A stretch of 64,000 nucleotides of DNA. Origin: Symbiodinium sp. CCMP2592 (lineage: Eukaryota; Sar; Dinophyceae; Suessiales; Symbiodiniaceae). The notes below the pieces were generated by a model, which ran no database searches, was not told the origin of the DNA, and saw only the letters and a list, made by a program, of their open reading frames with translations. Every line of letters starts with the position of its first letter. The first letter of the stretch is position 1. Made by a program: the position numbers and the translations under genes. This document shows, in pieces, positions 7,711 through 35,730 of this stretch. The stretch is from assembly GCA_905221615.1 (NCBI GenBank), contig CAJNDT010006017.1, positions 214,001-278,000 of the forward strand, given 5' to 3'.

Positions 7711-10287
7711 GTGATGGTCACCTTGTTGGAAAAAGGAATGAAGGAACCGAGTGACTATGGGTTGCTCACGAATCTGGAAGAGTTGGAAAGAGAGCTGGCG
7801 CAAGAAGGAGTGCCGATGGAGGTCACGGGAACCTCCACGAGTTCGAAAGAGAAGAGAGGAAGCGAACAAGAGGAACCGAAGAGAGGAGTTCCGGTGATTG
7901 GCGAAGATGAGGAAGATGTGATGGTGATTGGACCAATGAAGTTGACACGCCAGAGTGAGTTGAAGGAGATGAAAGCGGCGTGCAAGTGTCTGCATATCTC
8001 CAAGAATGGATCGAAAGAGATTTTGTGGAAAAGATTGAAGAAAGAGGTTGCGTTGGGCAAAGTGAAAGCGCAAGCCCAAATCTCTGAAGACATCAGAAAG
8101 GAATTTGAGAGAGAGCCAATTCCAGAGGCTCTGCCGGCTTTGCCGAGCCCGGAAGAGATAGAAGCGCACGAGTTGACGCATTTGCCGAGAGCGCCCTGGT
8201 GTGAAGCATGCCAGGCGGCAAAGAGTAGAGAAGACAACTTCGAAGAAACAAAAGAGAAAGCGCAACGGCCCGTGTTTAGCTTGGACTTTATGTTCACAGG
8301 AACACAAGGAGATGAAAAGGAAAGAGATCCGCTTGCTATTCAGCTTGCTGGGGTTGACAACGACACGAAATTCCTGATAGCTATTGCGGCGCCAACGAAA
8401 GGAGGAGATGCGGTGATAAACCACGCGGTGAGTGAAGTGGTGAGAGTGTTAGCCCTTTTGGGTTACGCTGAAGTAGTTCTTAGAACAGACACCGAGCCAG
8501 TGATGATTGCGATCAGAAGAGGAGTTCAAGTGGCAAGAACCAAACAAGGTTTGAAAACAGAGTTGCAAGATGCCACGCCTGATGAGCATCAAGGGTTGCC
8601 TGTGGAAAGATATATCCAGACTGTGAGGAACCTTGCAAAGACGTTGCTGGCGACGGTAGAGCAAAGGAGTGGAACGGCCATTGGATCTGATGTCCCGCTT
8701 TATGACTGGGCGTACAGACATGCAGCCTGGCTGCATAACAGGTTTCATGTGGGAAGAGATGGTCGAACGGCGTTTGAAGCAACGGTTGATAGAACGTACA
8801 AAGGAAAGCTGGCCCCATTCGGGTCAGCAGTGTTTGGAAAGGCAGTGCCAAAGACGAAAGAAAAAGGAGAACCTTGGGAAAAAAGAGTCTTTCTGGGAAA
8901 AGACTATGCGAGCAATTTGAACCTGATTGGCACAGGTCGAGGAGTTATTAAAGCGAGAACAATGAGAAGATCTGCTGAAGCATATCAGCCGGAGCTTTTG
9001 CAACTTTCTGTTGGAGCTCCCTGGGACCATCAGCTGAAAGCTTTGGGGTTCAAGAAGAAAAGAATTGTGCCTATTGATGATGGGCCAGGATTGCCAAGGT
9101 TGGCAGCTAAGGAAGACAAAGGAGTAGAAGAAGAAAAAGGTAGCGAACCTTCGCCGCCAAGCGAGCGCCCAGGAACTTCAAGTTCTTCGAGTAAGAGTTC
9201 GTCACTGTCGGGAGCAACGCCCGAAGGAGAACCAATGGACGACGAAAGCGATGATGATGACGACGACCCAGGAGAGGTGAGAACAAAGAGAAAAGCGGAA
9301 GATGAATTGGTGCCCGATGAGATGACGCTAGAAGAGTCTCAAACAGATATTGCAAAAAGAAGTGCAGAAGAAGAAGGAGAAGGGTCACCAAAGAAAGGAC
9401 CAAGAGTAGACGAAGGAACTGGAGAAGTAGAAGAAAGAGTTGAAAAAGCGCCAAGACTTGAAGGAGAAGCACGAGGAAGTGCAGAGCGAGTGGAATACCA
9501 CATTCGGAGATTCGCCAAGAGCAAGGATCCCGCAGAGCACGGAGATGAGTATGTTGATCTCGACGAGACACGGCTGTTTCTTGAAGAAAGTCGAGAGTTC
9601 CAGAGCAAGTGGCACGAGAAAGTGTGTGAGACAGAAGAGGACCTAACGGTTACTTGGTCTCACGAGTATGATGATGGGCCACCTAAGTTGGACGATGAAG
9701 ATTTGGAGAAGGTGGACCTGAAAGCAGAGAAGACAGAAATCGAGAGACTGTTGGAGATGAAAGTTCTCAAAGAAGTGGATCTGGATGAGAATGGAGAGTT
9801 GAAGAAAGGACCGAATGGAGAAGAACCAAAGAGACTTAGTACAAAGTACGTGTTGGATTGGAGGCATAGGGACCTCCAATGGAAGAGGCGCGCCCGCCTA
9901 GTGGCGCGAGAATACAAGTGGCTGACGGATTACGATCTCTCAGCACTGTACTCACCAACGAGTATTGGTTCGAGTATCAAGCTGTTGTCAGCTTTGTGTG
10001 CGAGTTCAAGAGACTACGAGATGATCTCGATAGACATTTCTGACGCGTACCTTCAGGTGCCACAGAAGGAGTACACTGTTGTGAGTTTAGGAGGAAAGTG
10101 GTACCAACTGCAGTACACCCTGCCGGGACAACGAACAGGAAGCAGTGACTGGTTTGAGCATCTACGTGAAATCCTGGAGAAAGAGAAGATGGTTTCCGAT
10201 GTGGGATTACCAAGTTTCTTCTACAATCTACAAGTTTTCGGAGACGCCAGGAGAAGGTGGAACGCTTATGAGCACCCATGTGGATGA
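7711..10287 (+). CDS. pol: pol part 1 of E2: SAP motif, integrase, start of RT
   Basis: 858 residues. A SAP-like helix-extended-helix motif lies at 7942-8046 (LKEMKAACKCL, then NGSKEILWKRL). The integrase zinc site HELTHLPRAPWCEAC is at about 8170-8213. The DDE core has Asp at 8284-8286 and 8488-8490 and Glu at 8605-8607, with 68 and 39 residues between them. An acidic Ser/Glu linker follows. The RT fingers begin at LSTKYVLDWRHR (about 9835) with RRARLVAREY and SIDISDAYLQVPQ. The frame stops at 10287, because the YVDD-type box lies one frame away. Together these parts integrate and copy the element. The original polyprotein would continue directly into the next entry; I infer a single indel at 10235-10275. 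Confidence 0.9.
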   Translation: MMVTLLEKGMKEPSDYGLLTNLEELERELAQEGVPMEVTGTSTSSKEKRGSEQEEPKRGVPVIGEDEEDVMVIGPMKLTRQSELKEMKAACKCLHISKNGSKEILWKRLKKEVALGKVKAQAQISEDIRKEFEREPIPEALPALPSPEEIEAHELTHLPRAPWCEACQAAKSREDNFEETKEKAQRPVFSLDFMFTGTQGDEKERDPLAIQLAGVDNDTKFLIAIAAPTKGGDAVINHAVSEVVRVLALLGYAEVVLRTDTEPVMIAIRRGVQVARTKQGLKTELQDATPDEHQGLPVERYIQTVRNLAKTLLATVEQRSGTAIGSDVPLYDWAYRHAAWLHNRFHVGRDGRTAFEATVDRTYKGKLAPFGSAVFGKAVPKTKEKGEPWEKRVFLGKDYASNLNLIGTGRGVIKARTMRRSAEAYQPELLQLSVGAPWDHQLKALGFKKKRIVPIDDGPGLPRLAAKEDKGVEEEKGSEPSPPSERPGTSSSSSKSSSLSGATPEGEPMDDESDDDDDDPGEVRTKRKAEDELVPDEMTLEESQTDIAKRSAEEEGEGSPKKGPRVDEGTGEVEERVEKAPRLEGEARGSAERVEYHIRRFAKSKDPAEHGDEYVDLDETRLFLEESREFQSKWHEKVCETEEDLTVTWSHEYDDGPPKLDDEDLEKVDLKAEKTEIERLLEMKVLKEVDLDENGELKKGPNGEEPKRLSTKYVLDWRHRDLQWKRRARLVAREYKWLTDYDLSALYSPTSIGSSIKLLSALCASSRDYEMISIDISDAYLQVPQKEYTVVSLGGKWYQLQYTLPGQRTGSSDWFEHLREILEKEKMVSDVGLPSFFYNLQVFGDARRRWNAYEHPCG

Positions 10288-11704
10288 TTTGGAAGTGTTT
10301 GGAAAACCAAAAGAGAACCAAGCAGTAGTGGATCTGCTGCTGAAGCACAAGCTGAAGATAAAGCTGGAAGGTCCAGTGAAGGTTGGAGAAGGAAAGTGTA
10401 CTTTCTTGAAGAGGACGTTCTTAGGAACGAAAGAAGGAATTGAGATCAGGATGGACGGCAAGTATCTGGAGAAGCTGGAAGAGATTTTAGGTTTGGGAAA
10501 AGCCCTGCCAAAGAAGTTGCCGTTTCCAATGGATTACGGAAGATCGTTGAAGGACGACACGCCCTTGGATGCAGATGAACATCATCTGTATAGATCCTGT
10601 GTAGGAATCCTATTGTATATGACACCAGAGAGACCTGATTTGGGATTCGCTACGAAGTGGTTGTCAGGGAAGTTGGCAGCGCCAACGCGAGGAGACTTAG
10701 CAGTGCTTAGGCACGTGGCAAAGTACGCGAAAGCGACAGCCCACTACGTGATAGAACACAAAGAGGCATATCCTGGAAAGAGTTTTCTTGATCCAAGAGA
10801 TAAGAGAACTGAGAATGCCTACAAAGATGTCTTTACAGCAAAGAGTTTGATCGAGGTAGTGACTGACGCCGACTGGGCGACCGATCGTGAGAATAGGCAG
10901 TCAACGAGCTGCGTCTTGATTTTCGTGAACAGTAACATCGTTTACTTTCACGCAAGAAAGCAAAAAGCGACGGCTTTGAGCAGCTGCGAAAGCGAACTGG
11001 TGGCAGCTGTTGGAGGTTTGAGTGAAGGAGTTTTTCTACAGAACCTGTTGCACAGAGTTCTAGGGATTAGGCCGGAAATGGTGATTCGGATGGATTCTAG
11101 CAGTGCTAGGTCTATTCTCCTGAAGAAAGGCTTAGGAAGAACGAGGCACATTGATGCAGGACTGCTTTGGGTTCAAAGGCTTACTTCTGTAGGTCTTCAA
11201 GTGAAAGCAATAGCTGGAAAGGAGAACCCTGCAGATGTAGGGACAAAAGCCTTAACACGGAACGCTGTGGTGAAGTGTTTGGAGAGGATTGGTGTAAGAA
11301 CTGGAGAAGAGAGTGAAGAGGTAAGAATAGCAAGTGACTTCAAAATTCCTACGAAGTACCTCAGGAGGCTGGTGATGATGATGATGGTTCAGCAATGTGA
11401 TGGACTAAGAGAGCAAAGCAGTAGAAGCAGTGATGGTGGATGCTTCGGGTTGGTGATGATGGTGATGATGATGACTATGGTTGTTGTCATGCTTTGCAAC
11501 GGTAGCCTGTGGAAGAGTTTGGTTAGAAGTGCTGAGTGCATGTTTCATTCCGCCGCTGCCGTTTTCAGCTCAAGAAGAGAAGTGAGTAGGAAGGAAGTGA
11601 GGAGAGAAGAAGTGAAGAGAAAAGAAGTGAAAGAAAAAGAGAAAAAGAAAAATAAAAGGATGGCAGAAAAGGAGGGATTGACGACGAGGCCCTCCGAGTG
11701 CTGA
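10145..11704 (+). CDS. pol: pol part 2 of E2: RT palm, RNase H, hydrophobic tail
   Basis: The coding value begins near 10240. It starts with the RT active-site box HVDDLEVFG (about 10276) and connection blocks including YRSCVGILLYMTPERPD. RNase H follows with TDADWATD (about 10863), SSCESELVA and DSSSARSILLKKG; the acidic residues of the family are present. KENPADVGTKALTR ends the conserved part near 11260. The last 110 residues are unusual: a Met/Val-rich hydrophobic segment of about 18 residues (11447-11500), then a Lys/Arg/Glu-rich end. EB and E3 have comparable hydrophobic tails. The stop lies about 50 bases into the next ORF's open frame. Confidence 0.9.
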   Translation: MTGLSIYVKSWRKRRWFPMWDYQVSSTIYKFSETPGEGGTLMSTHVDDLEVFGKPKENQAVVDLLLKHKLKIKLEGPVKVGEGKCTFLKRTFLGTKEGIEIRMDGKYLEKLEEILGLGKALPKKLPFPMDYGRSLKDDTPLDADEHHLYRSCVGILLYMTPERPDLGFATKWLSGKLAAPTRGDLAVLRHVAKYAKATAHYVIEHKEAYPGKSFLDPRDKRTENAYKDVFTAKSLIEVVTDADWATDRENRQSTSCVLIFVNSNIVYFHARKQKATALSSCESELVAAVGGLSEGVFLQNLLHRVLGIRPEMVIRMDSSSARSILLKKGLGRTRHIDAGLLWVQRLTSVGLQVKAIAGKENPADVGTKALTRNAVVKCLERIGVRTGEESEEVRIASDFKIPTKYLRRLVMMMMVQQCDGLREQSSRSSDGGCFGLVMMVMMMTMVVVMLCNGSLWKSLVRSAECMFHSAAAVFSSRREVSRKEVRREEVKRKEVKEKEKKKNKRMAEKEGLTTRPSEC

Positions 11705-13341: not shown

Positions 13342-14002
13342 AAGAGAAAAGAGAGGAAGAAGGAAGACCGTACCTCAGGTCTATAAACAAGGAGGGATGG
13401 AAGAAGTAGACCAAACCGGAGGTCTATAAAGAAAAAGGGAATCTGAAGGCTGTAAAGCCGAGAGGGGGAACTTCGTTCCCAAATGAGGAAAGAGTTTTCT
13501 GAAAGCTGTACGACAGCTGCACAACGAGAAGCCGAAGAGTTTCTTTACGAGGAGAATTTGAAGAGTTTAAAGAGTTTTGTGGCCACGGCCACCACGAGTT
13601 CTTTTGAGGCTAAAAGGCCAAAGAAGTGAACGAGTTTGAGAGCGGCAAGTAGGTGTAGCTCTGTTTCACTCGTCTCACACCACGACAAAACGCAGTGCAC
13701 AACGAGTGTTTCAAAAGGAGGAGTGAGCGACTGTTTTGGGTTCGTAGCACCTCTAGAAAGGGAAAAAGGCAAAAGAGGATGCGCGAAGAGGGGGTAACAA
13801 ACATTTCGCTCAGGAGTGTGTTGCCCTATAATCCTGTAGTTGAGCTGTTTGCCACATGATTTTGTATAGCATGGAACAAATGTTCCACTGTGGTGTTTAG
13901 GCTCAAGGGACGCACCCAAGACAGCCGTGCGCCCGAGGAAAATTGAAGTGCGAATATCTGTGTGAAGTGAAAGGGTCCGGAACGTACCCGTAAAGCGTTT
14001 TA
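13342..14002 (+). other. 3' untranslated end of E2, no gene
   Basis: Purine-rich, with a repeated ACCTCAGGTCTATAAA / ACCGGAGGTCTATAAA pair at 13372-13430 that could be a short duplication or a promoter-like element of the missing LTR. Two G-runs (13466-13475, 13787-13796) are possible polypurine tracts. Nothing protein-like is seen. Confidence 0.4.
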
Positions 14003-15945
14003 TTTGGGCTACATGAGTTTCGAGTTGTGGAGGGCAGTTGAACAAGCTGAAACCGCTCGGTGTCGCTGATCTCATGAAGCGATGCGGTGCTCAAGAGTCT
14101 TCAACATATTATGGTTACGACACGGTTTGTGTGAGCTTTGGCCGTCAAGGTACTCTTATGGTAATCAAGTGTGCAGCGGAAGCTCTGGTGGCCGAGACAA
14201 TGTAATTTGTGGGTTTCAGGTCTACACTTCATAAGCACGCAAGGCATGACTGCTTACGCTACGTGATAGTCGGGCTTGGGTAGCATTTGACGGTAGCTGG
14301 TCAGCTCGTCTAGCTTGGTGATGAGTTGTTGAGTGTACATGCATAAACTCAAACCTATCGGTGTCGTTGATCTCAGCATGCATCAGCGTGTGATTGTCAT
14401 AAGTTTTGGTGGCCGCGACTGTTCAATTATAGGGTTTAAGCAAGCAACGAAAAAGGCATGGTGGCTTGCGCTACTGCCGGGTTTGGGTTCTGATGGAGCT
14501 AGTCTATATTGGCGCAGCAATGTTGAGCATAGTTGAACTAACTGAAACGAAGCGGTGTCGCTGATCTCCTGAATCGATGTTGTGTGCGCGCGAGTCTTCA
14601 GCGTATGACGGTTATGTTACGGCTTGTGTATAATTTCTGACCTCCAAGGTTTTCTTCAGGTATGCATGCAGCAGAAGCTTCGGTGACCGATGCTGTGTCG
14701 TTTCGGGGTTTGAGGCACTCGCTTAAGCAACAACAGGCATGGTGGTTTACAGTGTATGATCTCAGGTTAGAGATTCTGATGGACGAGAACTAGTCTAGAT
14801 TGGTGCTGAGATGTTGATGGCAGTTGACCAAATTGAAACCAATCGGTGTGCTGTTCTCATGAGGCGATGTCGTGCTCAAGAGTCTTCAGCCTAGGATGGT
14901 TACGACACGGCTGTGTGAGATAGTATTATGTTAAGTATGCAAAGGAAGCTTTGGTGGCTGAGACTGTGTAATTTTCGGGTTTCAGGTCTATCGACGATAC
15001 TCCTCGTTTTGTACGGTGATGGGATGCTGAGGGTGGGAACAAACTGAAACCGGTCGGTGTCGTTGCTATCATGAAGCATCTGCGTATGATGGTCAGGAAG
15101 CAGATTGTGTAAGCCAGTGTAAGCTCCAAGCTAAGGTTTGTATGCTAAGTGTGCAGGGGAACCTTCCGAGACTGTGTAAACTTGGGGCTTGGGGCAGCTA
15201 AGCAACAAAAGGCATGGTGGCTTGCGCTACGTGATTTTCGGGTTTGGGCATTGATGGACAGTGGCTAATGTGGATTGCTGCTGGGATGTTGAGCCTAGTT
15301 GAAGAAACTGAAGCCAATCGTCGTAACCACCATGTGCTAAAGACACTTGAGCACGACATCGCTTCATGAGATCAGCGACACCGCGGCTTGTGCATGCTAA
15401 CCGATAAGGTGTTCTTGTGCTGAGCATGCAGCGGAAGCCCTGGTGGCCGAGACTGCTCAATTTTTGGGTTTGAGGTTCAAACTTAAGTAGCAACGCAAGA
15501 CGTGGTGGCTTCTAGGCGATTTTTTGAGTTAGGGTACTTTCGACGATAGCTCGTCTAGCTTGGTGCTGCGAATACTTGAACAAACTGTGGCTGTCGTTGA
15601 TCTCATGAAGCATTAGTCTCCAAGCCCGCGTAGGCGACCATGTCTGTTGTTGCGTGCGTAAGTTTAGACCTGAAACCCTCCTTTGCACACCTAACATTGC
15701 ATACTTATCATAAGAAACCTTATCGGTGTACTACGGCTACAGTTTCCACAAACCGTTCACCAGTACTCCAGGTCGAAAATCACGTCACGGAAGCCACCAC
15801 GTCTTCTGTTGCTTCATTTAGTGTAGACCTGGAACCCCGTAATTACACAGTCTCGGCCACCAAAGCTTCCGCTGCATACTTAACATAAGAAAACCTTTTC
15901 GGGTAGAGCTTGCACAAGCCGTGTCGCAATCATCAGCCGGTAGCT
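14003..15945. repeat. Degenerate satellite, unit about 290 bp
   Basis: Repeated landmarks in the same order: TGCTCAAGAGTCTTCAG, CCGATAAGGTATTCTTATG, GCTTTGGTGGCCGAGACTG, AAAGACATGGTGGCTTACG, TTTCGGGTTTGGG, CAAACTGAAACCAATCGGTG. Adjacent CTCAAGAGTCTTCAG-type landmarks lie about 294 bp apart here (14575 and 14869). Units are diverged by substitutions and deletions and all run in the same direction. Confidence 0.9.
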
Positions 15946-17640
15946 CGTCTTGGATGCTGAGTGCAGTTACATGGTCAAGATGTCGACGACGTCGTCGATG
16001 AGGAGATGGTGGTCGTGGCTGTTGAACTTGCTTGCTACCGCCACATGCGGGACTGTGCCCGAGGTCATTCCACCAGCACCCGTGTGGGTGCTGCAGCAGG
16101 ATGAGCAATGCCCCCCATCACGGAGAGGCCGATGCCGTCGAAGGGCAGGGTCGTTGCTCAGGTCCTGCGTGGAGAGCGACTTGTGTTTCGACTGGAGTGG
16201 CCGCCCGTGTCACGTGCAATGCTGAGGACATGCCGGTCCACTGCCTTTGCGGCATGGCGGTACCAACGAGCAATCAACAGCTGCTTTGCTCGAGCATGAC
16301 GTTGCATGCCAGGCCCGGTGCTTTCAACGCCAGCACATTTGGAGTGTGGTCCTGTCAACCCCGTCAGCGCAAGTCACAAGGCCCAAGGACCACCGTGGCT
16401 CGTGGACGCGGCACAGAAGCTGCAGCTCGCCAAGGCCCAAGAGCAATCGATGCCACAGTCTCAAGCCCGTCGAGAGATGTCGCCGGACGAGGCGTCAGAT
16501 GTCATGCGAGGCCGTTCGCAAGGCAAGAACGGCGCGGAAGAAAGCCACCCTTAAGGGTTACTGTCGATTGGTTATCCTTCACCAATGCCGGTCGCACTCG
16601 CCGCCCGGTTCGGATCATGGACTGAAGTAGTTATTTGCCCAACCCTGGAAGGTCACAGGCCCAGCGCAGGTTGGCGGTTGGATCGAGCAGAACGGTCCAA
16701 CGCTGTGCAGCGCCGTGATGACATCCCGCATTTTTTGTCGATAGATTCATGTCGAGGAATTGAGTGAACGTGACTCACTTTCACGCCGAGTGGTACCTTG
16801 TATCGTCTTGACCTGGTAGGGCGCTATTCTGTCCTTTCAGGATTTCATCCGCAATGTTACGAAAGCTGAAAATGGTGTACGCAGTCTTATACCGTTGGCC
16901 ACGGAGAGCTGGAGCTCACAGTGCGTGATGCATCACTTGTTGCTGATGACCTGAATATGACCCTTCGTGATGATGAGTGTACTGTGGAGGAGACTCGTCG
17001 CCGTGCCGAAATGTCCCAGCAGGCCCAGCCAAAGTATCCAACGCACCTTCTTCCGGGCAAAGGTGAAGGGAGTGGCAAGGCCAAGAGCCAAGCCGAGGCC
17101 GCTGGTCGCCTCGACCGTGAACGTGATCGTCGCTGCCAGCGTTAATGGGATGCTGATGATGACCGGTTGTGGTGGAACTGATCCGGATCCGGATGGTCCT
17201 TTTGGATAAGTGGCGCTGATCCCAGATCCTTCGTGGGCCGTAATTTTCCATGTGCTTGCGCAGGTATATTCGACTGGCCAACGAGTCGAGGACGAGACGG
17301 CCAATCTGATCATCGGCTTAGTGGCGGCAAAAGCTGTTTGGGTGCGTTGCACATCCCCTCACGAGCGTGCTTTTCGAGACGCGTAAGTAGTTAGCTTTTA
17401 AACCGCTGCATAACTTTTTCTTGCAATGTCGAGGGTGCGGGAGGCAACTCCATGCCGATCACTGAGGCTCCGGGCCGAGTAATGATCTTCCACGTGCAGG
17501 CTGGTTGTGCTTGGCTTTCCATTATGTGACCGTTCCTCTGGTGAGGGGCACGGGGTGTAGTTTGGCGTCGCACCGTGTGTACGAGTTTATGTAATCGTGT
17601 ACAGTCGTCATGTTGCATCGGTTCTCGGTGTGTGGTGTAC
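15946..17640. repeat. Repeat family A, copy 1 (about 1.67 kb)
   Basis: Starts at ACATGGTCAAGATGTCGACG and has blocks shared with copies at 27439, 31737 and 42392. These include GAGGTCATTCCACCAG, CATGTCACGTGCAATGCTGAGG-like sequence, CAGTCTCAAGC, GGAAGAAAGCCACCCT and CACCAATGCCGGT. It is inserted in the satellite, which resumes at 17641. Short open frames exist in several registers, but none is shared intact by the copies, so no gene is called. Confidence 0.8.
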
Positions 17641-19000
17641 CAATTGAATTCAATCGGTTTCGCTAATCTCATGAACCGATGTCGCGCTCAAGAGTCTTCA
17701 GCACACCTTGGTTACGAGACGGTTTTGTAACCTCCAACCGATAGGGTAATTCTTATGTCAAGTGTGCAAAGGCAGCTTTTGGCCGGGACTGGGTATTTTA
17801 GGGCCGAATGTTTGAACTGAGTTACCAACAAAAGACATGGTGGATTACGCTACGTGACTTTCGGGTTTGGGTATCGATGGACAGACTAGCTGACTAGCTA
17901 GCTTGGTGCGGACATGTTCAGCGTAGCTGAACAACCTGAGAGCCATCGCTGTCGCTGCTCTGATGAAGCGATGTCGTACTCAAGAGTCTTCAGTCTTCGG
18001 CGTACGATGGTCACGAAACGGTGTGTGTGGGTCTGACCGATAAGGTATTCTTAGGTTCAGTATGTAACCGAAGTTTTGGTGGCTACTTAAGCAACGAAAG
18101 ACATGATGATGCACGCTACGTGAGTTTGGGTTTGGGTACTGATGGGAAAACCAATCGGTGCCACTGATCTCAGGAAGCGATGTCGTGCTGAAAAGTCCAT
18201 ATGCCGCTTTGGTGGCCGAGACTGTGTAGTTGTATAGGGTTTGGCAGCAAAATGCATGGTGGATTACACTACGTGATTTGTATGGTAGGGGTACTCTTTG
18301 ACGATAGCTAGTCTAGATTGGCGCAGGAAGGTCGGGCATAGTTCTACAAACTGAACCCAATCTGCGTCACTGAACTCATGAAGCTATGTCGTACTCAAAA
18401 GTCTTCAACGTATGATGGCTACGAAACGGTTTGTGTAAGCTCTAACTGATAAGGTATTCTTATTTTAACTATGCAGTTGAAGCCTTGGTGCTCGAGAGCT
18501 TGCAGTTTCGGGGTTTCATGTCTTGACGTAAGTATGCAACGGAAGCTGTGGCAGACTGGACTGGCCACTCATATGGTTTAGGCCAGGCTTTAAACTTGAG
18601 ACACGGTGTCTGACGCTACGCCATTTTGGGGTTTGCACGCTCGTGAACGATGGCTGATCTAGAACCAGGAACTATCCCCACTTCAGCCTCGATCCACTAT
18701 CTCTGCTTTGAAAAACTCACGGCGGTTTAAAAGAGATATAGCCGAATCTCTCAAGGTCGCGAAACGGTTTGTGTAAGCTCTAACCGTTTCAAGCCGATCA
18801 GGTATTCTTATGTAGCCGAAGCTTATGTGGCCGAGGCTGTGTAATTGTAGAGTTTAATGCTTAAACTTGAGTAAGCAACAAAAGACATGGTGGCCGACGC
18901 TACGCTTTGGGTACGGAATGACGATAGCTCGTCTCGTTGGTGATGGGATGCGATTGTATTTTCAAACCGAAACGCGCCTCGTGACGAGGTGCGAGTTACG
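17641..19000. repeat. Satellite continued
   Basis: Same landmarks as 14003-15945. The CTCAAGAGTCTTCAG landmark at 17683 and 17967 gives a 284-bp period. The last units are disordered. A 6-bp stem (AGAGAT / ATCTCT) lies at 18738-18757. Confidence 0.85.
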
Positions 19001-19241: not shown

Positions 19242-19246
19242 GGATA
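19242..19246. repeat. Target site duplication of EB, left copy GGATA
   Basis: Five bases directly before the 5' LTR, identical to 26306-26310. Five bases is the usual Copia length. Confidence 0.92.
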
Positions 19247-19436
19247 TGATGAAACTTTGCATCCCCTCCTTGTGCAGATTTTACCATGTACTGTGATTTG
19301 TGTTTTGCCTTAGGCTTTTCCACTTTTCACGTCGAACGTTTTCGTAGGTCATGCATGACATGAGCTCATGATGATTTAAATGCTTGGACGCAACCGAGGC
19401 CCAAACGAGTGCTTGAAGACACTTTGCAGTTTTTCA
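19247..19436 (+). repeat. 5' LTR of EB
   Basis: 190 bp, TGATGAAACTTTGC to GCAGTTTTTCA, nearly identical to 26116-26305. Expected to hold the promoter and RNA start. No clear TATA box; TTTTACCATG and a T-rich centre are the only hints. Confidence 0.95.
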
Positions 19437-21580: not shown

Positions 21581-22255
21581 TCCTTCTGTGATGGCTCCCG
21601 ACAGCTGGCCGTTCAGGTCAACACTTATGCGCCGCAATGAGCGCATGCCTTGGTTCGTGATTGAGCATTGCGCCAAGTGGGATGAACTTGAGGACGTTGA
21701 GGAAAGTATCCCCGCAGGCGGGGAAGCTGAGCTGATCGTGATTCTTCATGTTCAGCACGAACCGCTGGATGCTGCAGGGATCGAGGTTTCCGATAGGATA
21801 ATGGGTGACGTTGAGGTTCCAGCTGCGAGCTCAGACCAGCAGAGTGATGTTCGTGATGAGTTTGCCGATGGAAATCATGGTGGAGGCTCCCGAGCAGGAG
21901 CGCGCCGTTGAGCCTGATGTTGTGCATGCGCCCAGGGTTCTTCCCGACATGGAGGAGGCCGATGCAGGCCAGCATGCTGAAGGCGCGAGTGACCGCGAGT
22001 CGGTCACCGTTGATGGTGTGGAACTTTCGTACGGGAGCCCTCTGCAGACTCTCAGGGCCGCTTGCCAGAAGCTTGGGTTGCGAACATCAGGGTCAAAGAG
22101 CCGACTTTTCGAGCGTGTTCGGGGTTACCTTGATAAGCAAAAGCTGTCTCTGGAGCATGACATTGCGCGCGATTCCCAGAGTGTTGAGTCGAGGCAGCCC
22201 CGCGTGCAAACGTTGCCAAAGCCACCCTCGCCTCAGGAGCAGCTCATACACGAGC
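21581..22255 (+). CDS. Linker and SAP-like motif of EB
   Basis: Two overlapping frames continue the post-protease linker. It first reads WPFRSTLMRRNERMPWF and AKWDELEDVEE (frame of 21462). It then moves to the frame of 21805, with DGVELSYGSPLQTLRAACQK, GLRTSGSKSRLFERVRGYL and LIHELTH. The middle block (22036-22137) fits the SAP consensus: two short amphipathic helices around a Gly-Ser-Lys turn. SAP motifs bind scaffold-type AT-rich DNA in other proteins. The frame is lost in the CA run at 22258. Confidence 0.75.
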
Positions 22256-22278
22256 TGACACACACACACACACACCAT
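22256..22278. repeat. (CA)n microsatellite in the integrase zinc site
   Basis: About ten CA dinucleotides lie exactly where HELTHLPxxxWC is expected. After the run another frame gives THTPFAPWCGHC, so expansion has shifted the frame inside the zinc-binding site. Confidence 0.9.
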
Positions 22279-23214
22279 TTGCTCCATGGTGTGGCCATTG
22301 CATAGCGATGAGATCCCTTCCGGATCGTGCAGAGACAGTGTCCAGTGGGCCGAGGGATGTGGCTAGTGTTTCCTTTGACTTCTTTTACACAGGCTACGAG
22401 CCAGAGAAGAAGGAGGTCGTGGAGCGACGGCCCGAGACTGAGGATGATGCCAAGGACCTCCTTTGTTGCCTCATACATGACTCGGTGACCGGGGCAGTGT
22501 TGGCAGTTCCCACGGCGAGCAAAGGTGCCACCCGGCACCTAGGTGTCGAACTGATGCGATTTGTGCAGTCGCTCGGCCACAGCGTGGTTGAGCTGCGTTG
22601 CGACCAGGAACCAGCAACGCTTAAGTTGCAAAGAGCAGTTGTGAATGCCAGGCTTCGCTTAGGCCTCAAGACGCTTGAGAGGAATCCACCGATTGGGTTC
22701 CACCAGTCAAATGGTGCTGTCGAGAAGCAGGTGGATCTGGTGAGGAAGCTTGCGTGCACATTCCTGGAGTTCCTTAGGGAAAAGTTAGAGCGGATGCCAG
22801 ATCACAAGCAGCCACCCGCTGTTTGCATGGAGTTTCATCCACGCGGCTTGGGTCCGAAACTGCTTTGCCGTCACAGGCGGCCTGACCGCGTATGAGAGAA
22901 CAAGCAATGCTGCCTACACTGGCAGGCTTGTTGTGTTCGGGGAACCAGTCTTCTGCTTTGCTCTTCCCCGTCGCAAAGGCAATCCCCGCTGGATCAAAGG
23001 AATATTTCTCACCAAAAGTGTTTCCTCAGACATGTATGTGTTGGGAACCAAGGGCGGCATCAGACTTTCGCGGGCCGCTCGCCGCACAGGCCAGGAGTGG
23101 AGTCTGGATGCTCCTTTGTACAACGCCCTCACCGGGCTGCCTTGGGATTACAATGTTGTGGGCACCCGGGGTCGTACCCCCAGCAAAAACAAGGAAAGCG
23201 ATTGCCGCCGATGA
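22256..23214 (+). pseudogene. pol: Integrase of EB, frameshifted
   Basis: PFAPWCGHC supplies the Cys pair. The DDE residues are Asp 22377-22379 (SFDFFYTG), Asp 22602-22604 (RCDQEPA) and Glu 22722-22724 (NGAVEKQVD), with 75 and 40 residues between them. The frame breaks near 22840. A new frame (22933-23214) carries the C-terminal part GEPVFCFALPRRKGNPRW, a variant of the usual integrase C-terminal strand pattern ending in WxxGIFL, and LPWDYNVVGTR. All catalytic residues are kept; two frame changes disable it. Confidence 0.88.
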
Positions 23215-26115: not shown

Positions 26116-26305
26116 TGATGAAACTTTGCATCCCCTCCTTGTGCAGATTTTACCATGTACTGTGATTTGTGTTTTGCCTTAGGCTTTTCCACTTTTCACG
26201 TCGAACGTTTTCGTAGGTCATGCGTGACATGAGCTCATGATGATCTAAATGCTTGGACGCAACCGAGACCCAAAAGAGTGCTTGAAAACACTTTGCAGTT
26301 TTTCA
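26116..26305 (+). repeat. 3' LTR of EB
   Basis: 190 bp, nearly identical to 19247-19436. Visible differences include CATGCATGAC/CATGCGTGAC, GATTTAAAT/GATCTAAAT, GAGGCCCAAACG/GAGACCCAAAAG and TTGAAGACA/TTGAAAACA. Confidence 0.95.
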
Positions 26306-26310
26306 GGATA
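26306..26310. repeat. Target site duplication of EB, right copy GGATA
   Basis: Identical to 19242-19246. Rejoined, the empty site reads CGTGGATAGGATCCACG, a short imperfect inverted repeat. Confidence 0.92.
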
Positions 26311-27064: not shown

Positions 27065-27438
27065 GTGTTTCCCGGTCGTCGCTCGGCTAGCGCGTACTCC
27101 GGTGCTTTCACTATTCGGTGGATTGCTGGGGATGGTGGTGGGTTGGAGGATGCTAGTGCGCTCGTCGGTTTTACTGATCCCTTGAGGCCACAGCGTCTGG
27201 TGCCATGAGAATTGGTGGTCATGAAACAGTTTGTGTAAGCCTTTTCCCGTTTCCAGCCGATAAGGTGTTCGTCTGTTCGGTGTGCAACGGAAGGTTTGGT
27301 GGCATAGACTGTGTAGTTTTAGGGTTTAAGGTCAGTACGCAACAACGGTCCTGGTGGTTTACACTACGCGATTTTCGGGTTTGGGTGCTGATGGACGATA
27401 GCTTGTCTTGTGTGATGATGCGATGCTGGATGTAGTTA
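27065..27438. repeat. Satellite unit before family A copy 2
   Basis: From about 27200 the landmarks GATAAGGTGTTCG, AAGGTTTGGTGGC, TTTTAGGGTTTAAGG and TTTCGGGTTTGGG are present in satellite order. 27065-27200 is unassigned. Confidence 0.8.
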
Positions 27439-28254
27439 CATGGTCAAGATGTCGACATCGTCGTCGATGAGGAGATGGTGGTCGTGGCTGTTGAACCTGC
27501 TGCTGATGGAAGTTTATTGCTACAGCCGCAGAGAACGCATCTTCAGCTGTTGGGAGACTGTGCCCCAGCGAGGTCATTCCACCAGTGCCGTTTCGTAATT
27601 GAGAGGGTCCGCCGGAGCAACCGTCCCTGTCACGCGCAATGCTGAGGGCATCCCGGTCAACGCCGTTGCCCCAAACCCGTGCACCTCCGCTGCCCTCGAG
27701 GTATGGCGGTGCCAACGAGCAACCGACAGCTGCTCTTCTCGAGGGTTCCGCTGCCTTTTGCCAGGCCCAACTGCCTTCAATGCTAGCGCGTTTGCTTCGA
27801 GTGCGGTGGTCTTCGATGCGAGGCAACGCTCGTCACACTGCAGCTCGCGAAGGATCAAGAGGAATCGATGCCAGAGTCTCAAGCGCGTCGAGAGACGTGA
27901 CCGGGCGAGGCATGACTTCTTTAGAAGGCGACGTTGTTCGGAAGGCGAGGCCAGCGCGGAAGAAAGCCACCCTAAAGGGGACCGGTTCTGCCAGGATAGC
28001 AGGACTTATGCGGTATCTTGTATCCCTCACCAATGCCGGTTACACCCGTGTTCGAACCATTTGCCCAAACCCCAAACTTGGAACGCAAGGCTTCCGGAGC
28101 CCCCTTGCTTTTCGGCGTTGCGCAGTGTTGCACCTCCAACGTGCGCAACATTGAAAGGAATGCCTGCGGCCCTGGAGCGGAAAAGCCTGCGTCCATGAGC
28201 CGACTGCAGCCTCCCGACGCTCTCCCCAAGCTTCCCGGGATGTTGACCGCAGTT
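27439..28254. repeat. Repeat family A, copy 2 (about 0.8 kb)
   Basis: Begins at the same satellite position as copy 1 (GTAGTT then ACATGGTCAAGATGTCGAC). It is flanked by GATGCTGGATGTAGTT on the left and GATGTTGACCGCAGTT on the right, which looks like a target duplication of about 16 bp. Satellite resumes with GACGAAACTGACAC. Confidence 0.85.
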
Positions 28255-28975
28255 GACGAAACTGACACGAATCGGCCTCGTTGATGGCTTTTAGCGATGT
28301 CGCGCACCAGAGTCTTCAGCGTATGACGGTTGCGACACGGTTTGTGTAAGCTCTATAACCGATAAGGTATTCTTGATTATGTTAAGTATGCGGCAGAAGC
28401 TCCGGTGGCTGAGACTGTGTACTTTTGTGTTTTCAGGTCTACACTTAAGTAAGCAGCAAAAGACATGGTGGCTTACGCTAAGTGACGTTCGGGCCTGGGT
28501 TCTGATGGGTGATAGCTTGTGTTGAGATGTTGAGCGTCAATCGCTGTCGCTGAGCTCTAACCGTCTCTAACCGTCTCTAACCGTTCTTACGTCAAGTATG
28601 CAGGGGGGAAGTGTTGGTGATGTAAGTTTAGGGTTCGAGGCGCTTCTTAAGCAACAAAGGCATGGTGGTTTGGGCTACATGAGTTTCGGATTTGGGTTTT
28701 GATAGACGTTCGGTAGTCTAGATCGGTACTCCGATGTTGAGCGTAGTTGAACAAACTGAAACCAATCAATCAGTGTCGCTGATCTCATGGAGCCATGTCG
28801 CCCCCCCCCTCAGTCTTCAGCAAATGACGGCTACGAGACGGTTTGTCTGAGCTCTAACCGATAAGGTATTCTTATATTAAGTGTGCGGCGGAAGCTTTGG
28901 TGGCCGAGACTGTGTAATTTGCAGTTTTCGGGTCTACATTTAAGTAAGCAACCAAAGACGTGGACGGCTCACAGC
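28255..28975. repeat. Satellite after family A copy 2
   Basis: Contains the landmarks in order, including CGATAAGGTATTCTT twice and a CTCTAACCGT triplet repeat at 28555-28585. Confidence 0.85.
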
Positions 28976-30995
28976 GACAGCGCCGATTGTGAGTTGTGGG
29001 GCCTGGTCTGGGGCTTGTTCCGGGCTGTTCGGGGCTTGCCTTGGCCTCGTTGCGGGTGCCTCGTCCTGCTGGGTTCCCTTTTTCGGTTCCCGGTATGCCT
29101 CCAGCCATGGATACATCCGGGCACCCAGAGTGCCAACAAGATCCCAAGTGGGCAGCAGGTGGCGACGGAAGGCAAGCTTCCTCTGGGTCATGTCAGTAGT
29201 TCTTACTTTGGCATTGGTGCGCAGGTATCAGCCCAGCGGAGAGAGTGTCTGCAGCTTGTATCCTGACACTCCCTGCGCTCCCCTGCACTCAGCAGCTGAA
29301 CTGTGGAGACGAGGTTCTTGCAGGGCGGAAAATGGCAAGGATAACAGCACTTCAGGTGTGCCGCTGTCGCCTCTCCTGAGGACTTTTTCTGCTGATGTTT
29401 TCTGCAGGCTGAAGCTGCCTACTACGATTGCGCGAACCATGTACAAGCAGCGACAATAGCTTGATGTGCTGTCGGTACAAGCCGTTCGGGAAACAGGTCT
29501 CACCACAGACACCTGCACCAATCGCTTCGCCTACCCGAACAGGCTAGGATCTGGGTTGGCTCACCCGCGGGAAGGTTCTTTCGTACACTTGCGCTCAGGT
29601 CGGTTACAAGCTCACTGGATCTGGACACAATGGACTGAGGTGCAATCGGCTGGACCGGCGTAAAGGTTATAATTGCACTCAGGATGGCTGTCTGGAGTAC
29701 GGTCGTGCAAAACAGAGTGTGTCTGTGCCAGCCGCAACTGGGATAGAAGGCTATTCTGTTGGTGCATTTATGTTGCATCGTGTCTTTTGCCTGAGCCTCG
29801 CATGCCTGGTGGCTCCTCTTTGGGCAGAGGTGCCTCGCTCAACTTGTTTGGCTCTTGGTTTAATGATCCGGGCGTAACACTGCATACCTGGGCTCCGTTG
29901 CCGATGCACTCCTTCAGGTCGCCCATGGTGGAGGCTGTCCTCCCAAAGTGAGTGTGCTGATCCTTAAGCCGTCCATGGCACTTCCATTCCACTTGCACAG
30001 GTTTGAGGACACCCCGCCTGCTGCCTGTGACTCAGTCCTTGCACTGCAAACCTATGTGAGCTGCCACCGAGGTTTGAGGCTGCCTCGCCTGGTGTGTGCT
30101 CCTCAGCTGTCCACTGTGGCACGGTGCTCGTGCATCCTGTATTCTGGTCCAAGTTTGAGGCCGCCTCGCCTGCTGCCCAACTATTGTTTGCCGCCTGCCT
30201 CTCCTCTGTTGCGCCGCCAGCTCTGATGGCGTGCTATATCCAGCCATATGTGTTGTCTTCCAGGTTCGAGGCCACCTCGCCTGGATTTGATTATTGCGCA
30301 TTGTTGGAGACTTGGTTCGTGGCAGGTTATGTTGCCCAGCTTTGCCAGGAATGCACTCTTCCTCTGATTAGCTTTGTGGCTCAATCCTACAGCTGCCTCT
30401 GCCCCGACCTCTCCGGGTCTGTGCTTCGAGGGAAGGCGTGGACGTTCCGCACCGTCCCGTCAGTTCGTCTGTGGAAAGGGAGCTGGAAAAGATGTTTGCC
30501 ACCAGGATGAAGGGGAAGGTACCGAAGCACAGCTGCTTCGCGTGGACGTGGTGGCGGGGGGACGAGGCACAGCTGCTGCCAGTGCGAGAGCAGTGGCGGG
30601 AGATGCGTCGCAACCGTGGGGGCCACCGGCATCGCAGTGTGCCGCACAGGCCGTCCAAATGCTTTCGCCACAGACCCCTGAAGCCCCCGTGGTAGGCCGG
30701 TAGGCTACCTCGCGATCGGAGGTGTTCCGTGATTGGGAACCCAGTACACTGTCGTCATCATTGCCCATCGGGCTCCGACGCCCCAACCACCATGAGAGCT
30801 ACATTTGACCGTCGCGGGCTTGAGTGCTGATGTCTCTCTTCCGATGCAGGTGTGCGTTGGCTATCCTGGGCCCTGCTTGTGCAGCTATGTCGGTCCTGCG
30901 GGGCACCTTGCCCTTTTGCTCTGACGCCAGCCAGCTGATGATGAAAAGTGCTGTTCGGGCTGTCTGGGTTTTTCCCTTTCTCACCACCTCCTCCT
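28976..30995. other. No recognised gene; GC-rich unique-looking stretch
   Basis: Many short open frames on both strands, none with recognisable content or a convincing start. A four-unit repeat is described separately. A Gly/Lys-containing open frame at 30374-30703 is the longest plus-strand one here but shows no known motif. Confidence 0.4.
30000..30290. repeat. Four spaced copies of a GTTTGAGGCCGCCTCGCCTG block
   Basis: Copies begin at 30000, 30071, 30152 and 30262, spaced 71, 81 and 110 bp. Three are preceded by CAG, GAG or CAG and start GGTT, so they superficially look like splice donors in a row, but no coding signal supports exons. Confidence 0.6.
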
Positions 30996-31736
30996 CTCGT
31001 GAAGCGATGTCGTGCTCAAAAGTTTTCAGCGTATGATGGTTACGACACGGGTTGTGTAAGCTCTAGCCAGCAAGATATTCTTGGATTAAGTGTGCAACGG
31101 AAGCTGTGATTGCCGAGACAGAGTGAGTTTAGGGATTCAGGTCTACGCTGAATTAAGCAACAAAAAATATGGTGGCTTACGCTACGAATTTTCGGGCTTG
31201 CCGGCGTAGTGCTGAGATGTTGGGCATAGTCGAACATCAGGAAACGGTTTATGTAAGCTATGACCGATAAGGTGTTGTTATCTTACATGCGTGTGCGACG
31301 GAACCTTTGGTGGCCGCACTGTTCAAGTTTAGGGTTTAAGGTCTACGCGAAAAATAAGTAGGCAACTAAAGACATGGTGTCTGATGCTACATGATGTTCG
31401 GGCTTGGGTACTGATGGACGGTAGCTAGTCTAGCTTTGTGCTGAGTTGTTGAGCGTACTGGTACAAACTGAAACCCATCGGTGTCGCCCGGTGTCGCTGA
31501 TCTCAATAAGCTGCAAAGTGACAAGTATGATGGTCACGAAACGGTTTGTGTAAACTGTAACCGTTTGACACCGATATGCTATTGTATGTTAAGTGTGCAA
31601 TGTTATGTGTGCAAGGGACGGTTTCAAGTCTAAACTTAAGTAATCGACAGCAGACATGTTGGCTTACGCTACACGACTTTCGGGCTTGGAGACTGATGGA
31701 CGATAGCTCGTCTTGTTTGGTGATAGGATACTGCGT
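30996..31736. repeat. Satellite before family A copy 3
   Basis: Landmarks CTCAAAAGTTTTCAGCG (about 31015), AGCAACAAAAAATATGGTGG, TTTTCGGGCTTG and AACCCATCGGTGTCG in satellite order. Confidence 0.85.
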
Positions 31737-32045
31737 GTAGTTACATGCTCAAGATGTCGACATCGTCGTCGTTGTGGACATGGTGGTCGTGGCTGTTGAA
31801 CTTGCTGCCAATGAAAGTCTATTGCGACCGCCGCATGAGAAGAGGATAGCAAGTACTGTTAAACAGACGAATCAATGCCCTCCGTCAGGGAGAGGCCGAT
31901 GCCAACCAAGGGCTCGATCGCTGCTATAAGGCAGGTCCTATGTGGAAAGCGACTTGGGGCCGAAGGGCCATGTAGGCGCTGCTCATCACAGAAGCTGCAG
32001 CTCGCCAAGGCCCAAGAGCAATGCCTGCCAGACTCTTAAGCGCCC
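31737..32045. repeat. Repeat family A, copy 3, truncated by E3
   Basis: Begins ACATGCTCAAGATGTCGACA, as in the other copies, and is cut at about 32045, where the E3 gag frame begins. It contains TGTTAAACAG at 31857-31866, the same ten bases that start the probable E3 3' LTR. Confidence 0.7.
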
Positions 32046-32071: not shown

Positions 32072-34427
32072 TCCTCAGCAGCTTCAGGAAGCCAAAGAGA
32101 AGCAGGACTTACACAGGCGGTTCAGGAAACACTCACTGCAGTGCAGGAACAGCAGAAAGCAGCACAAACAGCGTTAGCAGACGCCCACACAAACGCAGCA
32201 ACAACACTTGAGGAGATAGGAGCATCGTTGGAGAAAGCAGTAAAGGAACAAAGAAAGCCTGGAGAAGTGGAGTTGCACAAGTTGATTAAAAGCCCTGAAG
32301 CATTTCCCCCAGGAACATGGCAAGAAGAGAAGAGTGGCTGGACAGAGTTCAGGAACAGGATGCGGATCTGGCTTGGAGCAGTGGATTCCAATATATGAAA
32401 CGAGCTTGAAGGATGACAAGATGATAAAGATGAGTGAGATGTCTGGAGAAGCAAAGGAAGCTAGCCGCCGCCTGTACAGTGTTCTCAGTGTTCTCTGTTC
32501 ATACACCAAAGGAAGGCCTTACCGTGTTGTAAAGCACGTAGGAGAGGAAAACGGTATGGAAGCCTACCGTATGTTGATGAAGGAATATCAGCCAACGAAC
32601 CGTGCAAGATCGTTGGAACTGTTTCACAACATCCTCAACTACAGGTTTGCTCAAAACAAAGGAATTGCTGAGAACATCCTCGAATATGAGGAACATATAG
32701 AGAAGTACGAGAAGGCGACAGGAGAAAAGGTACAAGAGAACTTGAAAGTGTCTACCCTTATTCAAGGTATGAAACCTGATGTCAAAAGGCACCTGTTGCT
32801 CAACCTTGATGAGAAAACCCAGTACACAGCTCTTCGTCAGTACTTTGTGAACTGCGAGTCAACAGAACGTTGGACGAACTCTTTGTCAGCTCAGCAAGGA
32901 ACACCTCACCGAACCACTACAGACTTGATTGACAAAGGTGACGATCATGGTGGTCTTGCAGCAATGGACATCAACCAAGCATGGTACAAAGGTAGGAAAG
33001 GATATGGCAAAGGCTATGTGCACCACAGAGGTAAAGGCAAAGGAAAAGGCAAGAAAGGTGGAAAGGATTTCGGAAAAGGTTTCGGCTTTGACGGTAGAGT
33101 CAAAGGTAAAGGAAAAGGTTTTGGAGGTTTTGGCAAAGGCAGAGGTCGAGGCAATTGGAAAGGTCGAGGTCGAGGTTTCAGAGGTTCCAAAGGAAAAGGA
33201 AAAGGTAGAGGAAGAGGATTCTTCAGGTCTAAAGGAAAAGGTAAAGGAAAAGCACAAGCAGCTACAGGAGTTTGTCACTACTGTCACAAGTACGGACACT
33301 TTGAAGCACAGTCTAGACAGAAGCAGCGTGACATGGGATATCAAGCTAGGAACGTAGACCTGGAAAGCCAAAGCGAACAAGCGAGCATCACTACTGCTAA
33401 CTCTACTCAAGCCCCGTCTTCAGCGAACAAGACCTCAACAAGCCAAAGCCAAGCAAGCCAAGGAGCACAAAGACCAGTGATTAGGATGGTCTCCATGTAT
33501 CACATGGGAGACGAGCCCACAAGCTTTCCGGAGGAATTCGAGTTGAGTGAAAATTCAGAGGAACTTGAGATTGAATACTTCGGAAGAGTCTTGCGGGTTG
33601 TTGGTGAAGAAGTTCAGGAAGAGAGGAGTGAGACAGAAGAGGTTTGGATTGGTGATGAAGATGATGAGTTTCAGGACTGTGATGAGGTGAGTGATGATGC
33701 ATGGTGGCAATGGCACGTAGGAGGAACCCCAGTAGGAACTCAAGATCGTGGATACTACTATGAGTGCCCTAATGGTTGTCATGAGACACCAAGGCGTCCG
33801 AACATGCAGGAATGTGAATTTGGATGTCACCATCCTCCCAAGAGGAACCGAGTTGAAAGAACAGTACCTCCAAGAACAAGCACCAGGTTTGTGCGCGCGG
33901 CAAGACGATCAGGAACTCGCGAAGTTGAAGTTGTGCTGGATTCAGGAGCCGACATTTCGTTGGCACCTATGTGGATGAAGAAGTACGGAAGGAGAGCACC
34001 CAACACTACCAAGGTGGTTTTGCGAGACGCACAAGGAACACGGATCAAAGTTTCAGAGCAAAGGATCATTGAGGTTGAGTTTCAGGATGTTCAAGGAAAC
34101 ATTGTGAAGGTTGAAGAAGTGTTCTTGATTTCATCGATTGTGCACCCTCTTTTGGCAGTAGGTAAGCTGTTGAAGAAAGGTTGGGAGTTCAGAGATGGAA
34201 CAACTACAGGCACTTTCCTCACAGAAGGAACAACCAAGATTGCAGTTGACTACAACAACAACTCACTTACAACAAAAGCCTTTGTGAGAGCAGTCAACTG
34301 GGAAGCAGAAGCAAAGCCTATTCCCATCCACTTGTGTGAGAACCTGAAGGAACTCATTGAGGAGCAGCGTGTTGGTTGGACCAACTGGAGAGACCCTTAC
34401 CAGGTCCACTACAGTTTAGGAACTTAG
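32072..34427 (+). pseudogene. gag: gag-protease of E3, one frameshift
   Basis: Frame 2 opens after a TGA at 32069 without an ATG: coiled-coil TLTAVQEQQKAAQTAL, then GWTEFRNRMRIWL. Near 32385 it passes to frame 0, which runs to 34427. That frame has the capsid block EAYRMLMKEYQPTNRARSLE, a long Gly/Lys/Phe-rich stretch, and a knuckle starting CHYCHKYGHF. The fourth zinc ligand is Ser (33312-33314) instead of Cys, so this knuckle is probably weakened. An acidic region follows, then protease VLDSGADIS with Asp at 33939-33941 and VGKLLKKGW at its end. Apart from the shift and the ligand change, the parts are well preserved. Confidence 0.85.
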
Positions 34428-35073
34428 AGCAAGTTGACACCTACCTGATGTTTCCACCAGGAAAGTTTGCTTACAGAGCAATACTCATTGAGGACGATGA
34501 CCAGTGGTATCTGTTGCACCATAGTGTTATGTTCGAGGAACTTGAGGAACCATTCGGAACAATCTTTGATGGCAGTAAAGAGTACCGAACATTGACGCTA
34601 GTTTCTCTCAAAGAGTTTCCACTGAACCTCATAGGTACACCCAAGGAGGACAGTGATAGGCGGATGTTTGAAGATTACACTGAGGATACGTGGTCTATCA
34701 GCATGGATGGCAAGGAACTCATTAGGTACCACAATTCCCTTAGCAAGACTCTGTTCAATCCTCGAGATACCAACGACATCCCAGTGGATATCACGAACTT
34801 AAAGCCTACCAGGTACACCCAAGGTGAAGAACCGATCAACAAGGATTTCTTTGAGGATGATAAGTTTTGGACTTAGGATGACCCAGAACCACTAGGAGGT
34901 TTGTCTTGGACAGGACATAGTAGATTTGAACTCATTGAGCCAGTGAACCCCAAGGCCAGGAAACCAAAACAGAAGGTTCATCAACTGGACACAATCCCTG
35001 AGCAAGAAGAAGAACAGGAAGAGACCTCAGAGGCCCAAGCACCAGAGCACCGACGTGAACTTGCAGGAGAACT
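34376..35073 (+). pseudogene. Post-protease linker of E3
   Basis: Frame 2 picks up at about 34420 (EQVDTYLMFPPGKFAYRA) and reads on through a TAG at 34874-34876 into LSWTGHSRFELIEP and an acidic Gln/Glu stretch to about 35070. A comparable linker (FVLNDGTPARFDWY) lies in E2. No enzyme motif is seen. Confidence 0.7.
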
Positions 35074-35730
35074 GTCATTACATTCAATGGTCATGAGTAC
35101 AACCAACAGAACAGTCTCAAGACCCTCAGAGAACTTTGCAAGGAAGTTGGAGTTTCAATTTTTGGTTCTAAGCAAGAGATCCTCAGAAGGCTCAGTAGAT
35201 CGATTATGGAAGCAGAAAGGCACATGGAGCTCAGCACAGCTCAGAAGAACTACAAGGAATACGTAGAGGCAGAACCCTTGAAGATACAAAAGCAGCCTAA
35301 ACCGGAAGAAGTTGCAGTGCACAACCTTACACACTTGCCTTATGCATCGTGGTGTCCTACATGTGTAGCATGCAAAGGAAAGGAGTCTCCACATCCTCGC
35401 GAGAACCTTGAGAAGGAAAGATCTTCGAGACCTACTTTCTGTATGGACTTCTGTTTCACAGGAGCCAGTCATGATGAGGCACCAGCGGCAGTAAGTCTTG
35501 TGTGTGTTGATTCTTGGAGTAGGAACATGATCTGTATCCCTACAGCATCTAAAGGAAAAGATCTTGTGGAACACCTTTGCGAAGGAGTCACATACTTGAG
35601 CACTCAATTGCAGTACGGAACAATCAACTTGAAGGCTGACAACGAAGGAACAATGATGAAGCTGAAGCAGGTAATTCAGAAGCAACGCGCGGCGTTAGGT
35701 CTAGGAACAGTCTTGCAGGACGCCATCAGT
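35074..35730 (+). CDS. pol: SAP-like motif and integrase core part 1 of E3
   Basis: Frame 1 carries VITFNGHEYNQQ, then the SAP-like motif at 35104-35205 (SLKTLRELCKEVG, FGSKQEILRRL). After about 35 residues comes the integrase zinc site NLTHLPYASWCPTCVAC (about 35321-35371). The core supplies Asp at CMDFCFTG (about 35446) and LKADNEGT (about 35638). The frame is lost at 35720-35735, just before the Glu. The first start in frame that matters is unclear, since this is polyprotein. Confidence 0.85.

Follow-up and report, generated by a model that had tools for sequence, protein, structure and literature searches.

By sequence and predicted fold, the integrase of one large group of Copia-type long terminal repeat (LTR) retrotransposons appears to carry an accessory DNA-binding-type module, a SAP domain, ahead of its zinc site, an arrangement of which a search of open-access literature found no description. 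The module was recognised in a 64-kb stretch of DNA, called the window throughout (C5155:214001-278000), and relatives were fetched from the 1.1-Gb assembly to which it belongs (G000). On its + strand, the window holds E2, EB and E3, three divergent elements of Copia type that each carry a SAP block ahead of the integrase HHCC zinc site. In the reading ranked first, with a probability of roughly 0.6, the SAP would extend the integrase at its N-terminus and clamp DNA inside the integration complex. The features concerned are as follows.

7660..10287, +, E2 open frame with SAP, integrase and the start of reverse transcriptase (RT; RT piece 9829-10233)
7963..8061, +, E2 SAP domain (Pfam SAP, residues 102-128; SAP_new25, residues 102-134; window-free profile; AlphaFold2 (AF2) model)
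8167..8211, +, E2 integrase HHCC zinc site HELTHLPRAPWCEAC (motif and open reading frame (ORF) reading)
22048..22131, +, EB SAP domain (residues 36-63 of the frame from 21943; above the Pfam cut-off)
22188..22895, +, EB integrase zinc CxxC and core, in a frame that differs from the SAP frame (CACACA-run frameshift)
35119..35193, +, E3 SAP domain (residues 21-45 of the frame 35059-35769)
35320..35364, +, E3 integrase HHCC zinc site HNLTHLPYASWCPTC (ORF reading)

All three blocks claimed in a preliminary description of the window are present, at the coordinates given there. A strict form of the motif that it gave, LxxLRxxC...GSKxxLxxRL, fits only EB and E3; E2 deviates from it, with M for L and K for R. 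Likewise, the zinc site said to follow the block is intact in E2 and E3, but that of EB is split by the frameshift, with HELTH in the SAP frame and CGHC in the 22188-22895 frame. E2 has the Copia order, in which the SAP and zinc site lie upstream of the RT piece; the RVT_2 cut-off is exceeded in frame 35705-38419 of E3 and in the relative L043, and E2 scores below it.

Sequence evidence for a SAP domain

Against the Pfam SAP family (PF02037, cut-off 23.9 bits), the window sequences score 26.4 bits for EB, 15.3 for E3 (E ~0.015) and 11.4 for E2 (E = 0.26), and E2 also weakly matches SAP_new25 (E 0.031). A window-free SAP profile, made of 13 rows from outside the window and scanned against the 945 window ORFs of at least 40 amino acids, finds EB at 71.9 bits (1.2e-21), E3 at 39.1 (2.1e-11) and E2 at 33.6 (1.1e-9), the next best window ORF reaching 10.1 bits (E 0.024). 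Residue shuffles (n = 20) attain 12.4 bits at most, compared with 33.6-71.9 for the real blocks. A chance motif was rejected on the basis of these profile scores and of shuffles falling far below E2, EB and E3.

A representative alignment of 16 rows was assembled from the three window sequences, four loci picked by Pfam hit (L031, L042, L044 and L045) and nine picked by likeness to EB; near copies of L031 (L033-L036, L038 and L043), a near copy of L050 (L051) and the E2 and E3 copies (L001-L018) stand outside it. Identity to E3 is 23-39%, with certain pairs closer, and the invariant positions are the C, G, K and R of the block, one Pro of the linker and the two His of the zinc site, the zinc-site CxxC being lost in L058. 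Every row matches Pfam SAP at E<=1 (best 4.5e-8). Five rows exceed the Pfam cut-off (EB, L031, L042, L044 and L045), EB being the only one among them that had not been picked by the Pfam search, and the match is weak (E >0.01) in another five: E2 (0.26), E3 (~0.014), L049 (0.07), L055 (0.013) and L054 (>0.1 but <=1).

When the alignment profile was compared with PDB sequences, two SAP hits fell below 0.001, Ku70 (4.4e-4) and Hcc-1 (5.2e-4). Weaker matches among the 21 listed, at 0.09-0.42, were Ydc2, ERI1 and 2rno, the last of which we take to be the SAP of plant SIZ1. Of the other 14, nine, including one at 0.0058, align with the zinc-site region and belong to the disulfide isomerases or thioredoxin-like proteins. 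NCBIfam gave no match for the four proteins searched.

Predicted fold

The AF2 model of the E3 region was built from three window rows only, and that of E2 from four. In the former, a helix at residues 20-30 is followed by a loop and a helix at 38-70, with block means of the predicted local distance difference test (pLDDT) of 91-93 at residues 11-50; in the latter, the SAP again forms a helix-loop-helix, with pLDDT about 89 at model residues 21-50. Structure prediction ahead of the zinc site had been proposed as a check, and both models returned a helix-extended loop-helix.

A Foldseek search of the PDB with the SAP model placed SAP domains or SAP-containing chains in all of the top eight positions (E 1.1-2.9). 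These are 2do1, 2wqg, 2do5, 1zrj and 1h1j, all named as SAP domains and the last titled as one that binds scaffold/matrix attachment regions (S/MAR); the Tho1 domain 4uzw; and ERI1 and Ydc2, both of which presumably contain a SAP. Because the domain is short, no match of this model is better than 0.001. The larger E2 model unites in one chain the SAP, a long helix, the helices of the zinc site and a mixed helix-strand core in RNase H-like order, and at E<=0.001 all 23 of its PDB matches are retroviral integrases or intasomes.

Judged by its sequence and its predicted fold, the block is a SAP domain. The SAP-like reading of the preliminary description was thus borne out by Pfam, by the profile comparison with the PDB, by the window-free profile, by the AF2 fold and by the Foldseek ranking.

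Linkage to the integrase and constraint

The distance from the Gly-x-Lys of the SAP to the first zinc His is nearly fixed, at 53 residues in 12 rows, 52 in three (E3, L045 and L055) and 48 in one (L031). Averaged over columns, the entropy of the 16 rows is lowest in the zinc site (1.18 bits), followed by the SAP (1.59), the pre-zinc stretch (1.82), the core (1.88) and the 23 residues behind the SAP (2.46). The SAP carries a net charge of +4 to +7 in every row, and the medians of the flanking stretches are -3, -1, 0 and -1.

Selection within element families was gauged by the ratio of nonsynonymous to synonymous differences (pN/pS), taken as uncorrected proportions in small sets. In the E2 family (seven of eight copies usable), pN/pS is 0.021 for the SAP, 0.037 for the linker, 0.041 for both the zinc site and the core, and 0.119 upstream; in the E3 family (ten of ten copies), it is 0.103 for the SAP, 0.113 for the linker, 0.029 for the zinc site and 0.070 for the core. 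The SAP before the integrase is kept by purifying selection. The constraint that had been claimed for the motif is visible both in the invariant C, G, K and R of the 16 rows and in the low pN/pS of the two families.

Distribution in the assembly

Counts from each genome search refer to at most the best ~150 places and are samples, not totals. With queries that include the SAP, the domain was found by eye, among the matches listed, in 133 of 133 places for E2 (split rows pooled), 150 of 150 rows for E3 and 128 of 130 places for L045; for L055, it was whole in 127 of 131, partial in one and absent from three, and for L053, whole in 120 of 129, partial in five and absent from four. Since such queries favour SAP carriers, an L045 integrase query lacking the SAP was also run, and its best 150 places were matched to the SAP evidence of the other searches and then checked by script. 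SAP evidence lies directly ahead of the integrase in 131 of them, three of which (C4970, C1122 and C4954) have the SAP separated from the integrase by a frame break. It is partial in two (C4445:3066601 and C1392) and lacking in six, of which C111, C2787, C5284, C4995:247242 and C5121 are short or broken frames and C851 is a 1287-residue frame; the remaining 11 could not be assigned and include six long-frame copies (C12, C584, C466, C955, C865 and C5201). The expectation that the block would occur in most relatives is thus supported, for the relatives scored, by a query free of SAP sequence.

A feature restricted to the window was rejected, given the many SAP-bearing relatives elsewhere in the assembly. 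No relatives were found in IMG/VR, bacterial genomes, archaeal genomes or phages. A further Copia integrase with an N-terminal SAP lies on the same contig about 21 kb to the left of the window (C5155:192412-193266, - strand).

A second lineage with a C-terminal SAP

The Pfam SAP search of the assembly gave 96 hits, all above the cut-off. Among 20 of these places that were read, ten have the SAP ahead of the integrase zinc site (N-SAP), eight have it near the C-terminus of Pol (C-SAP) and two have neither arrangement (L037 and L039). The C-SAP loci are as follows.

L029:5830-9600, -, C-terminal SAP
L041:1-3810, +, C-terminal SAP
L030, L032, L040, L046, L047 and L048, C-terminal SAP

The SAP of these loci lies in a long Pol frame, behind the RT, a part that is RNase H-like by its motif and a hydrophobic stretch; in the seven loci measured, it is 58-72 residues from the end of the frame. 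A search with the C-terminal SAP part turned up many relatives of low copy number; most are 31-40% identical, and their frames reach 3119 residues. In an RT tree, which omits L032, L040 and L042 (no RT match) and near copies, a 100/100 branch splits seven N-SAP rows from six C-SAP rows. As the tree is unrooted, has several long rows and includes no SAP-less row, it is no evidence that the presence of a SAP defines an entire clade.

The N-SAP profile has no match at E<=10 in three of the eight C-SAP loci (L029, L032 and L046), and in the other five its best match (one per locus) lies elsewhere, at chance level. The same profile detects the unrelated SAPs of L019, L022 and L024 at 1e-4 to 1e-3. 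As to whether the C-terminal SAP could be a moved N-terminal module, these sequence comparisons favour separate uptake over deep divergence, and two uptakes by two Copia lineages would be the simpler reading. It is conceivable, though doubtful, that uptake ahead of the integrase in one case and at the Pol end in the other was an independent, convergent means of holding integration complexes on DNA that lacks ordinary nucleosomes.

A pre-RT segment with an invariant H-K-D...H...PW..G.R pattern was also observed in this lineage (L029:8821-9483, -; L047:8820-9482, -; L041:448-1035, +; L048:8597-9184, -). We take it to resemble 2-oxoglutarate-Fe(II) oxygenases of the TET/JBP type, which a PDB search did not confirm; Pfam Tet_JBP gave E = 0.046 for L029 and no match for L047, L041 or L048.

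SAP-less and other features of the window

A further Copia element, E1, occupies window positions 1-5470 on the - strand and has 81 places, its own included, that are identical over a 100-residue query, which suggests a recent burst.

1..1602, -, E1 Copia-type integrase start with zinc site HVARGHQPYLPSCSLC (by eye) and no SAP found ahead

No Pfam family was found ahead of the E1 integrase up to E=10, and E1 is absent both from the twelve best matches of the window-free SAP profile (to E=2.5) and from the matches listed for the C-terminal SAP part search. It is a third state beside the N-SAP and C-SAP elements, with no SAP before the integrase. As no SAP was found there in E1, Copia transposition does not in itself depend on the module.

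The boundaries of EB could be delimited, and both of its LTRs are readable.

19242..19246, +, EB target-site duplication GGATA, left copy
19247..19436, +, EB 5' LTR, 190 bp, TG...CA (5/190 differences from the 3' LTR)
26116..26305, +, EB 3' LTR, 190 bp, paired with the 5' LTR
26306..26310, +, EB target-site duplication GGATA, right copy

EB is thus a SAP carrier with an ordinary 5-bp target-site duplication, and from its TG...CA LTRs and the GGATA duplication it follows that its insertion was the work of an integrase, either that of EB or that of a relative. For neither E2 nor E3 could a pair of LTRs be recognised within the 64-kb window. A long GAA-rich run (37028-37460) lies inside the E3 open frame between integrase and RT and is partly read as poly-glutamate. 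A dispersed repeat family with units of ~60-215 bp, ~60-93% alike, occurs between the elements (14000-18900, 27250-28980, 31000-31840 and 42040-44030). Scanning the window for Rfam families and tRNAs gave no hits, and no spliced-leader relic was found in the 363,889 letters searched.

Possible roles of the SAP

In the reading ranked first, the SAP would be an N-terminal extension of the integrase, with a long helix and a linker between it and the zinc-binding domain, in a position like that of the N-terminal extension domain (NED) of retroviral integrases. Its basic face would bind DNA in the integration complex without strong sequence choice and could act as an additional clamp that holds the DNA ends of the element, the captured target or both. 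We infer that the SAP would remain on the mature integrase after cleavage of the polyprotein and would bind DNA, and likewise which DNA that would be.

Several observations weigh against this role. The single-sequence Pfam SAP score is below the cut-off in 11 of the 16 rows, and the full E2 model has low confidence (mean pLDDT 66, predicted template modelling score 0.39), such that its SAP and parts of its core alone are trustworthy. In the E3 family, the SAP is not more constrained than the linker and is less constrained than the core and the zinc site. The SAP of the second lineage is far from the integrase and near neutral in charge, and no SAP was found ahead of the integrase of E1, the Copia element with 81 identical places. 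Moreover, the SAP may be released from the integrase by the protease.

Another means by which a SAP could act is by steering integration, through a tether to AT-rich or matrix-type DNA or to DNA exposed in histone-poor chromatin, in parallel with the way in which chromodomains may direct chromoviruses to nucleosomes that carry a mark. This reading, ranked second and considered unlikely, would fit the presence of S/MAR binders among SAP domains (title of 1h1j), and a SAP at the other Pol end in a second Copia lineage would fit repeated selection for a tether. The EB flanks, however, have 51-59% G+C against 52% in the window, a comparison that with n=1 says little, and passages of PMC4358916 report that deletion of the NED left the nucleosome preference of prototype foamy virus (PFV) integrase unchanged in vitro, the NED not being responsible for that selectivity. 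Less likely again, and ranked third, is a SAP whose action would be confined to the nucleic acid of the element itself, in packaging or protection of RNA or cDNA or in assembly of the integration complex on the LTR ends, and would never extend to the target. Such a role has a counterpart in the SAP-containing ERI1, which recognises an RNA stem-loop (PDB titles), but nothing in the analysis separates own from target DNA. Last in rank, and very improbable, is a SAP that would be cut off the integrase and would function either on its own, as a small protein, or attached to the protease segment as its tail. The several hundred residues between a DSGAD protease-like motif and the SAP in L043 (by eye) speak for it, but the near-rigid spacing and the conserved pre-zinc stretch fit one structural unit with the integrase.

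Relation to known systems

The block resembles the SAP family (PF02037; Hcc-1, Tho1, Ku70) in its predicted helix-loop-helix fold, its L..C...GL...G.K..L..R pattern and its basic face. The known members are mostly host nuclear proteins; here, the domain lies instead inside a retrotransposon Pol, at a nearly fixed distance ahead of the integrase zinc domain.

According to passages of PMC3738965 and PMC4358916, the NED of spuma-, gamma- and epsilonretroviral integrases is an extra domain of ~50 residues directly ahead of the HHCC domain and is essential in complexing viral DNA; the same passages do not call it a SAP. In the Copia rows, SAP Gly and first zinc His are 52-53 residues apart in 15 of 16 (48 in one). 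Foldseek aligned the E2 model with PFV intasome chains at E of about 3e-4 to 4e-4, with a root-mean-square deviation of 13-14 over ~204 columns, and at such a deviation no like fold is claimed for the NED and the front part of E2. With the SAP model, no retroviral integrase appeared among the 50 matches listed.

A chromodomain reads a histone mark, whereas a SAP reads DNA or RNA. The chromodomain of Ty3/Gypsy chromoviruses is likewise an extra module on an integrase (PMC3605345). It differs in lying at the integrase C-terminus and in belonging to Gypsy rather than Copia elements.

Automatic annotation labels many dinoflagellate proteins as SAP domain-containing. Description of a SAP ahead of a Copia integrase was sought in the open-access literature, outside which most subscription papers lie, and none was found, in keeping with the preliminary description, which knew of no such integrase module. 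The DIRS and LINE elements of Symbiodinium that bear a DNA methyltransferase (DNMT) are likewise algal retrotransposons with an acquired DNA-directed domain (passages of PMC5890265). In the same source, the most abundant Symbiodinium retrotransposons are Copia elements without DNMT, and the word SAP is absent from its main text.

Integrases often bear extra modules that affect how DNA is held or chosen. The SAP that precedes the Copia integrase in all 16 representative rows from one genome would be such a module, and one that could work without reading histones. The almost complete loss of nucleosomes from dinoflagellates has been reviewed (PMC11453091, in the passages concerned), and if the host is a dinoflagellate, the finding would raise, in concrete and testable form, the question of retrotransposon integration in nucleosome-poor chromatin.

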